Source: a virus
Length of the DNA: 24,149 nt
Virus record (IMG/VR): IMGVR_UViG_3300030450_001844
Location: 1 to 24,149 of that record
Strand: one strand, 5' to 3'
Part shown: positions 9,712 to 11,635 of the stretch, piece by piece
How the letters are laid out: the number at the start of each line of letters is the position of its first letter
Numbering within the stretch: position 1 is the stretch's first letter
Made by a program: the position numbers and the translations under genes
The notes under the pieces: generated by a model
What the model saw: the letters and a program-made list of their open reading frames with translations, nothing else
What the model was told of the DNA's origin: nothing
Databases searched by the model: none

Positions 9712-9948
9712 TTAGGATCGTAAATATGCAAAATAACTGTTTTCTCGTGCTGTATCAATAATTGTGTATTTGCTACAGTCAAGACATTTAATATTGAAGG
9801 TTCGTGGTCGATCTTTGCTATATATGTATAAAACACACTCTTTTTTGTTTACTTGTTGTTCGCCACACTCCACACAAGTTGAATTGCATTTGTCCGTTAT
9901 GTAAATATAATTTTCGATATCTGCCATTCGTGAATTGCTTTTAGCCAT
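9712..9948 (-). CDS. Small zinc-ribbon protein, first gene of the leftward operon
   Basis: A 78-residue protein with ligands C21, C25-V-E-C28 and C55-L-D-C58, the two knuckles of a zinc ribbon separated by a beta-rich stretch (CVLYIYSKDRPRTFNIKC). Such ribbons bind nucleic acid or RNA polymerase, and as the first gene after the promoter it could be an early regulator (inference). The start codon has TTGGAGTAACAAA directly upstream, and a near-perfect extended -10 box lies about 33 bases before the ATG. Ser and Asn residues at the N-terminus are probably disordered. Confidence 0.65.
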   Translation of the reverse strand: MAKSNSRMADIENYIYITDKCNSTCVECGEQQVNKKECVLYIYSKDRPRTFNIKCLDCSKYTIIDTARENSYFAYLRS

Positions 9949-9977
9949 TTTGTTACTCCAATAATTTAACCTATGAA

Positions 9978-9989
9978 TAAATTATATCA
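9978..9989 (-). promoter_or_regulatory. Extended -10 promoter of the leftward operon
   Basis: Read on the minus strand, this is TGATATAATTTA: a perfect TATAAT (9981-9986) with the TG of an extended -10 in the correct place. No good -35 is visible (the best spacing gives TATTCT), which fits an extended -10 promoter. Transcription would start near 9974, leaving a leader of about 25 bases with GGAGTAACA before the first gene. The same 12 bases recur at 10977-10988. Confidence 0.6.
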
Positions 9990-10072
9990 TATAATGTTAC
10001 TGTAGAATAGCAATAGTATATAAATAACATAGCTACATTTAAATCAATTATTGCAATGTTAGCAAATAACGG

Positions 10073-10091
10073 AAAAACTATAAAAATATAG
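10073..10091 (-). terminator. Weak leftward terminator candidate
   Basis: On the minus strand this reads CTATA, TTTT, TATAG and then five T. The stem is five pairs, almost all A-T, with a four-base loop and an immediate U tract. More T runs lie just upstream on the same strand (10096-10140). The stem is weak, so the call is tentative. The site is well placed, just before the promoter of the leftward operon, to end any RNA started at the upstream promoter copy. Confidence 0.3.
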
Positions 10092-10173
10092 CGAAAATGC
10101 CCATAAAAAAACATAAAAAACAGTAAAACAGTAAACAAAAAAGTAACAGTAATATACAATAGCTAATGATAAC

Positions 10174-10246
10174 CAATGGTAGCTAGAGGGTTTTTGGTGC
10201 TGTTGTATATGCACCAGTCCATAACACGCAACATAAAAACCCATTG
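10174..10246. repeat. Nested inverted repeat
   Basis: The outer arms are GGGTTTTT (10188-10195) with AAAAACCC (10235-10242). A further CAAT (10174-10177) can pair with ATTG (10243-10246). An inner stem, TGGTGC (10195-10200) with GCACCA (10211-10216), has a 10-base loop. It has no U tract in the right place for a terminator. It could be a structured RNA domain or a protein-binding site. Confidence 0.5.
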
Positions 10247-10261
10247 CAAAGTTTCAAAGGC

Positions 10262-10600
10262 TACAAGTAGCTAACACGTAGGCACATTGCAACAATGGCA
10301 GCAATTGAAACAGCAACAATTAAAAACAAAAGGTTGCGTTGTCTTTGGTATTGGTACAATGACGAAGGCACAAGCAACCCAACAACCCAAAACCCAACAC
10401 AGCAGACACAACGCCGACACCAACAGCAACCCAATAACCTGGCTACGGAGAGTGACAATGGCAACAGCTTGCATTAGTAGCATTGGACGCAGTCCTTTGA
10501 TACTAGGGCAAGGGGGTAGCCCTTGGCATCTCGTAGTAGTAGTGGTATCTACCCCTGCCAATTTAGTTTTTGTAAAAAGCCCCTTTTACCCAAACCCCTG
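10262..10600. other. Gene-free segment with strong A/C strand bias and short repeats
   Basis: The plus strand from about 10262 to 10445 is made largely of CAA, CAG and AACCCAA-type words (AACCCAA or close variants recur between 10374 and 10435), with few T. Open frames exist on both strands, but none has a ribosome-binding site and their proteins are low-complexity (for example MQQWQQLKQQQ), so I do not call genes. A 6-bp hairpin, CAAGGG (10509-10514) with CCCTTG (10520-10525), and a (GTA)n patch follow, then GTAAAA with TTTTAC near 10572-10589. Such biased, repeat-rich DNA between divergent operons could be a replication origin or part of an untranslated RNA. Confidence 0.4.
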
Positions 10601-10606
10601 TAACTA

Positions 10607-10704
10607 GTTACTACTGTTACTGTTACTGTTACTATAACTCCTCTTTAGTTACTTATCCGTTATATAGTTACTAGTTACTAGTTACTATAGTAACTAGTGT
10701 TACT
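10607..10704. repeat. Array of nine GTTACT hexamers
   Basis: GTTACT occurs nine times in 98 bases (starting at 10607, 10616, 10622, 10628, 10648, 10667, 10674, 10681 and 10699), partly as head-to-tail GTTACTGTTACT and partly as GTTACTA units. Inverted copies (AGTAAC) are interspersed. Read backwards, AGTAAC is also the core of the operon's GGAGTAACA ribosome-binding site, but there are no start codons here. Possible protein-binding iterons. Confidence 0.8.
10677..10698. repeat. Perfect 22-bp palindrome
   Basis: The two halves, ACTAGTTACTA and TAGTAACTAGT, are exact reverse complements with no spacer. It ends the GTTACT array and directly precedes the alternating purine-pyrimidine tract. Candidate operator, initiator-binding or nicking site. 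Confidence 0.85.
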
Positions 10705-10743
10705 ACGTGCGTGCGTGTGTACGCGTGTACGTGCGTGCGTATA
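10704..10743. other. 40-bp perfectly alternating purine-pyrimidine tract
   Basis: Every base from 10704 to 10743 alternates pyrimidine and purine, mostly as GT, GC and AC steps, with the 13-bp word TACGTGCGTGCGT present twice (10704-10716 and 10728-10740). Such DNA can adopt the left-handed Z form under negative supercoiling. It stands out sharply from the AT-rich surroundings. Confidence 0.85.
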
Positions 10744-10760
10744 GGGGGTGATTTTTCGTT

Positions 10761-10819
10761 GGTAATTTGGGAGGGCTGGAGTAATAAACGAAGTGGAGAA
10801 GTCATGTGATTACCAGCCC
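10761..10819. repeat. Two overlapping, mutually exclusive inverted repeats
   Basis: GGTAAT (10761-10766) can pair with ATTACC (10809-10814). GGGCTGG (10773-10779) can pair with CCAGCCC (10813-10819). The two right arms share bases 10813-10814, so only one stem can form completely. This could be an RNA switch or two operator half-sites. It has no poly-T run. Confidence 0.5.
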
Positions 10820-10848
10820 CTTACTATTTTATACGTTATATGACGTTA

Positions 10849-10879
10849 TTGACAATAATAGTAGATATGAACGTATTTT
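10849..10879 (+). promoter_or_regulatory. Candidate rightward (late) promoter
   Basis: A perfect TTGACA (10849-10854) is followed by TATTTT (10874-10879) at a spacing of 19, longer than the usual 17. Transcription would start near 10886, just before the hairpin at 10891. No better candidate lies upstream of the late operon. A phage-specific promoter could also be used and would not be recognised here. Confidence 0.3.
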
Positions 10880-10890
10880 AGTTGGGGTTT

Positions 10891-10943
10891 AGGGAGTCAT
10901 CGGTCATTTCATAGGTTGGATCAGATGTAACCAACGACTCCCT
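10891..10943. repeat. Hairpin I: 8-bp inverted repeat with inner stem
   Basis: AGGGAGTC (10891-10898) pairs with GACTCCCT (10936-10943). Directly inside the right arm, GTTGG (10915-10919) pairs with CCAAC (10931-10935) across an 11-base loop, so the two stems would stack. It has no poly-T tail, so I do not call it a terminator. It lies at the predicted start of the late leader. Confidence 0.6.
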
Positions 10944-10976
10944 GATGTCTATTTGTTGGAGTAACAACAATAGGAT

Positions 10977-10988
10977 TAAATTATATCA
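10977..10988 (-). promoter_or_regulatory. Second copy of the extended -10 promoter, leftward
   Basis: The minus strand reads TGATATAATTTA, identical to the promoter of the leftward operon at 9978-9989. Here a partial -35, TTGGTG, lies 16 bases upstream. It would start an RNA near 10973 running leftwards through the gene-free region. GGAGTAACAACAATA (10958-10972, plus strand) nearby resembles the operon's ribosome-binding site but has no start codon. Confidence 0.45.
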
Positions 10989-10997
10989 CAAAAAAGC

Positions 10998-11055
10998 ACA
11001 CCACCAAAGTAAAATTGTGCATCAGTTTTCGTTTGATTAGTGTCTTTGATGGTGT
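10998..11055. repeat. Hairpin II: 12-bp inverted repeat with one mismatch
   Basis: ACACCACCAAAG (10998-11009) pairs with CTTTGATGGTGT (11044-11055) at 11 of 12 positions, with a 34-base loop. It lies between hairpins I and III upstream of the late operon. Confidence 0.6.
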
Positions 11056-11082
11056 TCTTTACATTGTAGCAAATATGTCAAG

Positions 11083-11169
11083 GCAAGGGTGACCTGGTTT
11101 AGTACAGAGATACATTATCAGACGGACGCAATAGTGAGGCAGTTCACTTCTCTGGTTTACGACCCTTGC
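11083..11169 (+). ncRNA. Hairpin III: 87-nt multi-stem RNA-like element before the first late gene
   Basis: The closing stem is GCAAGGGT (11083-11090) with ACCCTTGC (11162-11169), a perfect 8 bp. Inside it, CAGAGA (11105-11110) pairs with TCTCTG (11149-11154), and AGTGA (11133-11137) pairs with TCACT (11144-11148) around a six-base loop. Three nested perfect stems in 87 bases suggest a real folded RNA or a cis-acting leader structure (antitermination or translational control). The length and closing stem resemble a tRNA with a long variable arm, but no T-arm or anticodon arm fits, so I do not call a tRNA. The strand is chosen because the late operon starts 22 bases downstream. The stems could equally form on the minus-strand RNA. 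Confidence 0.35.
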
Positions 11170-11191
11170 AATTCTATGTTAGCATATTGGT

Positions 11192-11635
11192 ATGTTAGCG
11201 AAGATAGAGGTTTGTCCTAGGTGTTCTGGGCAAATTAGTAATTCTGGGAGTATTTTTGGATTTTCAGGGTATACAGAGATTTGCTGCATACATTGTGGGT
11301 GGGCTGAATATATATATGAAGAAGATAAAAGCAAGAGGCCTAGAGAGTATTTTGACAGACAGATAGTGCCTTATGATGAGGCTTTGATTTCTGAGAAAAA
11401 GAAAGACAGGCCTAAGTATGGGTATCCTGATATAGAGGTATATACGGACTTCACAGTTTTCAATTCTGGATTTGAAAGGATTGTTATTTCTAGCAGGTGT
11501 CCATTTTGTGATAGAGACAAGAAAACTTACAAATCGAAGAAAACCAGAAGGCTTAATTTACTAAGAAGTGTTTGCGAAAAGAAACATGTGTGGTATTTTA
11601 ATGTAAAGGACAAAGAACCTATTTCATGGAGGTGA
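11192..11635 (+). CDS. Double zinc-finger protein, first gene of the late operon
   Basis: A 147-residue protein with an N-terminal zinc ribbon (C8-P-R-C11 and C32-I-H-C35) and a second cysteine cluster near the C-terminus (C103-P-F-C106, then C128 and H132). Between them lies a charged, Tyr-rich segment. Two metal knuckles suggest nucleic-acid binding, perhaps regulation of the late operon or DNA packaging (inference from position). The ATG at 11192 is the only possible Met in the frame, and the frame is closed just upstream. No Shine-Dalgarno sequence precedes it, which is unusual here. The next gene follows three bases after the stop, with a GGAGGTGAT site spanning this gene's end. Confidence 0.6.
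   Translation: MLAKIEVCPRCSGQISNSGSIFGFSGYTEICCIHCGWAEYIYEEDKSKRPREYFDRQIVPYDEALISEKKKDRPKYGYPDIEVYTDFTVFNSGFERIVISSRCPFCDRDKKTYKSKKTRRLNLLRSVCEKKHVWYFNVKDKEPISWR

Follow-up and report, generated by a model that had tools for sequence, protein, structure and literature searches.

Phage HK022 carries putL just downstream of its early promoter, and its put RNA is a nascent antitermination element of two stem-loops, with no pseudoknot described, that alters RNA polymerase and, needing no protein factor, suppresses pausing and termination (PMC9378689). Bidirectional bacterial promoters have a symmetric -10 with divergent starts 7-25 bp apart, usually 18 (PMC10268837). Stem-loops at the 5' end, of the papA and aprE type, are mRNA stabilisers (cited in PMC3997798). 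How does the control region of a marine phage compare with these?

The window, i.e. the whole stretch of DNA analysed, is a marine virus contig of 24,149 bases from a tailed phage lineage known here from metagenome contigs alone. A leftward operon begins at 9948 (primase, ParB-like, PD-(D/E)XK exonuclease and Gp88-like genes) and a rightward one at 11192 (a 147-aa cysteine-rich protein and the small and large terminase subunits). The interval between them is a divergent control region, with early genes to the left and terminase (late) genes to the right. The large terminase subunit (TerL) has only distant likeness, about 25% identity, to actinobacteriophage terminases; TerL searches found no relative in 84,980 species genomes and none in plasmids, INPHARED phages gave no useful related DNA, and a tRNA search found none. 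A TerL search supplied 80 viral contigs as relatives (L numbers below), and 81 loci entered the model search described next. Their control regions have a common layout: early genes, an A/T-rich stretch, Element C, direct repeats, hairpin modules, Element A, a symmetric box and late genes (Table 1).

Table 1. Features of the control region, in window coordinates
Feature	Position	Strand	Sequence or remark
Left copy of the reported box	9978-9989	-	Promoter-like, ahead of the first leftward gene (ATG 9948, GGAG ribosome site); 5' hairpin not seen
Element C	10512-10583		Conserved motif GGGGGTA..CTTGG..TCTACCC.TG....TTTA.TTT..TAAAAAG
Short direct repeats	10600-10740		GTTACTAG, GTTACT, TACGTGCGTGCG; origin-like or operator-like
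Module 4	10773-10855	-	Promoter-like TTGTCA-18-TAAAAT (10855-10826), 6 nt, hairpin GGGCTGG/CCAGCCC (10773-10819)
Module 3	10891-10988	-	Extended -10 TGATATAAT (10980-10988), small hairpin 10953-10970, large hairpin 10891-10943
Module 2	10998-11071	-	Extended -10 TGCTACAAT (11063-11071), 7 nt, hairpin ACACCATCAAAG/CTTTGGTGGTGT (10998-11055)
Element A	11083-11169	- (predicted)	87-nt conserved fold with H-type pseudoknot; predicted +1 at about 11169
Element A, P1	11083-11090/11162-11169
Element A, P3 (pseudoknot)	11094-11097/11118-11121
Element A, P2	11105-11110/11149-11154
Element A, P4	11133-11137/11144-11148
Element A, possible P5	11123-11124/11160-11161
Symmetric box	11176-11185		ATGTTAGCAT; extended -10 (TGNTANNAT) on both strands, identified from sequence
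First late gene	11192-11635	+	147-aa cysteine-rich (zinc-ribbon-like) protein; ATG 6 nt after -10, without Shine-Dalgarno

Prominent in this region is Element A. Its covariance model scores the sole copy in the window at 90.7 bits (E 3e-19) and has strong matches, one each, in 35 of the 81 loci; no copy was detected where TerL is at most 73% identical (L061-L080). When 33 distinct copies are compared helix by helix, the four helices are kept despite wide sequence change, and the P3 pseudoknot helix alone is found as CTGG/CCAG, CTAG/CTAG, CCAG/CTGG, ACGA/TCGT and GCAG/CTGC. In a 19-sequence alignment, 85.1% of cells are paired, as against 38-46% with partners slid; 23 of the 26 pairs show double changes, on both sides, and the covariation score is 0.564 compared with 0.12-0.17 slid. 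Since P2 and P3 cross, they form an H-type pseudoknot enclosed by P1, unless the two are alternatives. RNAalifold, which cannot draw pseudoknots, chooses P1, P3 and P4, and single-sequence folds of the window's copy are weak on either strand (z about -1.3). There are also conserved unpaired bases, read on the minus strand as CTAA near P3 and others.

No family in Rfam 15 corresponds to Element A on either strand, the only matches (miRNA, snoRNA, RT-3) being far below the gathering score, and Rfam searches of the window and its relatives at gathering and permissive E-value thresholds returned nothing. The pattern has no match in the 84,980 species genomes. A literature search found no account of a similar fold, though one may have been published elsewhere. 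Among the libraries searched, Rfam 15 included, the fold is new.

Which strand carries the RNA? Wobble pairs in Element A are few, and G-U versus A-C pairs favour neither strand; judged by base pairing, the plus strand or a role as single-stranded DNA would fit as well. The strand is taken to be minus because promoter spacing and leader position, not base pairs, point leftward. The symmetric box, ATGNTANCAT in 33 of the 36 distinct copies, reads TGNTANCAT on both strands, and the starts predicted from it are 11169 leftward and 11192 (the A of the ATG) rightward, 23 bp apart. Element A starts 6 nt from the box in the window, and in nearly all copies 5-7 nt separate the leftward -10 from the start of P1 (15 nt in L175). 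The rightward -10 is usually 6-7 nt before the ATG, mostly without a Shine-Dalgarno sequence, and the 147-aa late gene probably has a leaderless mRNA. The leftward TG of the box is kept in 36 of 36 copies and the rightward TG in 33. Its two free N positions are mostly non-complementary, as might be expected of two overlapping extended -10s rather than of a protein's palindrome.

Position relative to genes bears on the same question. In two sub-lineages a leftward gene with a Shine-Dalgarno sequence comes shortly after Element A: in L025, L055 and L199-L203 the minus strand reads, beyond the fold, AAGGAAA and then the ATG of a gene of 56-57 codons, whose product (56-57 aa; L025, L055) has a hydrophobic C-terminal half. 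Five contigs were found with this protein, those of L025 and L055 included, and in all of them the fold has the same position. What comes after Element A in most phages is a further promoter-like element rather than a gene.

These further elements are also oriented leftward. Across 25 representative control regions, the extended -10 pattern TGNTAN(A/C)AT was scored 50 times on minus and a single time on plus; the symmetric box was counted on minus but not on plus, where too little sequence lies beyond it, and leaving the box out gives a ratio of about 27 to 1 even so. In 36 of the 50, a stem no shorter than 7 bp is present 5-8 nt after the extended -10, compared with 9% of random positions. 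The 36 include copies of Element A, and about 15 of the remaining 27 elements qualify. Wobble pairs in module stems number nine G-U read on minus and two read on plus. The sequences compared are related and the counts are not independent events, but they are good evidence that hairpins stand at the start of the predicted leftward RNAs. TANCAT, the variant -10, matches TATAAT weakly. Pairing in the large hairpin of Module 3 is kept in L003 by a compensatory change (GGAGTC/GACTCC to GGTGTC/GACACC), and the (G)GGCTGG hairpin after an extended -10 is found also in L003, L006, L010, L012, L016, L031, L045 and L049.

Several other observations concern the modules. In L012 (2952-3686), L031 and L045 a leftward gene, PD-(D/E)XK-like by eye, stands directly after the GGCTGG hairpin module; the L012 copy has no Pfam or PHROG match. 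Hairpin loops adjoining Element A carry CTCC on the minus strand (L017, L186, L178, L039, L057, L054, L042, L172, L012), and several contain (T)CACCTCC(T), the anti-Shine-Dalgarno sequence of 16S rRNA. CTCC is present in 7 of 22 module loops versus 3.2 in shuffles (p 0.02, a value that ignores kinship). On the plus strand the same loop bases are a ribosome site, followed in some phages by a short ORF.

Element C occurs also where Element A was undetected (L061, L062, L066, L074, L077, L079). A motif of about 70 bases (GGGGGTA.G.CTTG ... TACCC.T.....TTTAATTT.TAAAAG) was seen in nearly all relatives inspected: in the window at 10512-10583 and in L003, L009, L019, L025, L037, L041, L049, L054, L055, L059, L061, L062 and L079. 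It was considered as a covarying RNA, but pairing by eye is mostly constant or inconsistent, and it is left as a conserved motif.

The control region is, on balance, probably an array of leftward promoters and leaders whose outermost RNA starts with Element A and which shares a divergent symmetric box with the late genes. That Element A is the 5' leader of leftward transcripts can be proposed with considerable confidence, judging from its sequence context. The comparison of related sequences supports four points: the fold with its covariation, its almost constant spacing from the leftward -10, the modules' bias towards one strand and the leader place in two sub-lineages. If, as we infer, the promoters work, the symmetric box would start transcription both rightward, into the leaderless late gene, and leftward, into an RNA that begins with the 87-nt pseudoknotted fold, and promoters farther downstream would start leftward RNAs headed by simple hairpins. 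One RNA polymerase at the shared box would presumably exclude the other direction.

What might Element A do? Candidate actions are on RNA polymerase, protection of the 5' end, or ligand binding. It may work in cis, on the transcript that carries it, the likeliest ways being modification of RNA polymerase in the manner of HK022 put and 5'-end protection. No terminator or element needing antitermination was identified. Inspection by eye of the L025 and L055 leaders revealed neither a terminator nor a sequestered ribosome site after the fold, which may speak somewhat against an ordinary riboswitch. A put-like action is a doubtful proposition, drawn by analogy. Equally speculative is the notion that Element A represents a new class of nascent RNA in phages, one able to modify the transcribing RNA polymerase and coupled to a symmetric promoter; if true, a single polymerase could take up either the early leftward programme or the late rightward one.

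Might the 5' hairpins, Element A included, only shield RNA 5' ends from decay? The stems start at the predicted +1, and the Bacillus subtilis pyrophosphohydrolase RppH requires unpaired 5' nucleotides (PMC3997798). Shielding alone leaves the pseudoknot and the conserved unpaired bases of Element A unexplained, and the latter argue for more than end protection; we regard it as rather unlikely to be the whole role.

The elements might instead act as DNA, in a replication origin that would comprise iterons, inverted repeats and single-strand structures and in which the promoter-like boxes would be of secondary importance. The cumulative GC skew has its minimum, or sign change, within the control region, where short repeats, an A/T-rich flank and hairpins are also found, and Element A has very few wobble pairs. 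However, the skew also tracks gene direction, and its sign change is compatible with gene direction as well as with an origin. The stems stand at a near-fixed distance from leftward extended -10s, module wobbles favour the minus strand, and Element A serves as a leader ahead of a gene with a ribosome site. An origin as the primary role is accordingly given little credence, and we consider it decidedly unlikely. At the place equivalent to 10600-10740, relatives have repeats of other sequence. Upstream of Element A, L020 and L021 have a long GTACT / ACTGT repeat block and other relatives GTTACTAG repeats. Multi-G runs at short spacing (G-quadruplex-like) lie between repeats and modules in L007, L017, L019, L039, L054, L057 and L178, and the separate contigs L178, L179 and L189 end within a few bases of each other at the G-run region.

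A third reading makes Element A a cis-regulatory, riboswitch-like 5' leader of the rightward late operon. Element A is always upstream of late genes, and its few G-U pairs fit the plus strand. Yet the rightward -10 stands between fold and gene, close to an ATG that mostly lacks a Shine-Dalgarno sequence, and there is no recurring plus-strand extended -10 upstream of Element A. The fold also persists without the 147-aa gene: in L034, L039, L040 and L044 that gene is not next to the box, but fold and box are kept. In L025, L055 and L057, the exceptions that have lost only the rightward TG, a gene other than that of the 147-aa protein comes next and, farther downstream, there is a new rightward -10-like element, whereas Element A and its leftward -10 are retained. 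The rightward riboswitch was dropped owing to these three copies, and a rightward leader of any kind appears very unlikely.

The proposed leader array takes in a stretch that the earlier note had read as a possible separate untranslated leftward RNA of about 0.9 kb, possibly of the ROOL or GOLLD type, between two identical promoters. TGATATAATTTA does occur twice on the minus strand, at exactly 9978-9989 and 10977-10988; with one mismatch allowed, the window has three sites against 0.43 expected (2 of 100 shuffles reach three). The inverted repeats listed between 9974 and 10990 exist, and no conserved ORF was seen between the two operons. The boxes are promoter-like, but their sameness does not extend beyond the 9-base extended -10: in L003 the right site reads TGATATAATATC and the left one TGATATACTGTA. 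As the bases after the -10 differ there, the pair represents two ordinary extended -10 elements, not a special unit, and further leftward -10-like elements lie nearby (11176-11184, 11063-11071 and about 10826-10833). The TGATATAATTTA boxes are two of about five such predicted elements in the divergent control region.

The proposed end and extent of this RNA fare less well. The terminator-like hairpin at 10073-10091 has an A/T-rich stem that the terminator scan did not report, that is broken in L003 and that is absent in L002. The control region folds better than shuffles on either strand (z -4.1 for minus and -3.1 for plus) and does not single out a strand. Covariance models of ROOL and GOLLD had no match at gathering score in the window or its relatives. 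Compensatory changes in related phages, which the note had suggested looking for, are indeed found in a structured, predicted leftward RNA, but the most conserved fold, 11083-11169, lies outside the proposed 0.9 kb. The interval is of similar length in L003 but is not kept as a unit: bases from about 10304 to 10430 are largely missing or unalignable in L003 and L002, though other pieces align, its middle has many insertions and deletions between relatives, a leftward protein gene sits there in L012, L031 and L045, other relatives have unrelated sequence, and only scattered hairpins are retained. One independent leftward noncoding RNA of this length is thus highly improbable. The earlier note was right that something structured and leftward is present, and wrong on its extent, end and kind; the stretch seems likelier to be an untranslated promoter and leader array ahead of the early operon.

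Element A, as a pseudoknotted and strongly covarying RNA fold, is a marker of the early/late switch region in this lineage of marine phages, and it offers a defined RNA for testing action on host RNA polymerase or RNA decay. The symmetric box would be a natural promoter, and many relatives are at hand for comparing its two directions. Among known systems, ROOL and GOLLD resemble the RNA first proposed in being structured noncoding RNAs of phages; they are far larger than Element A. Stabilisers of the papA and aprE type have, as Element A would by prediction, a stem at or near the RNA 5' end; Element A has a pseudoknot and conserved unpaired bases as well. The closest functional model, by analogy, may be HK022 put, likewise a structured leader, some 70-90 nt long, with which a leftward phage transcript opens (PMC9378689; the position of Element A is predicted). 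The folds differ, two stem-loops in put versus an enclosed pseudoknot with covariation in Element A, and the two are likened by description and position. The phage box shares with bidirectional bacterial promoters a single symmetric box and divergent starts, here predicted (PMC10268837). It departs from the usual ones in its shared extended -10, in the 23 bp, rather than 18, that separate its predicted starts, and in that one of its RNAs would begin with a conserved fold.
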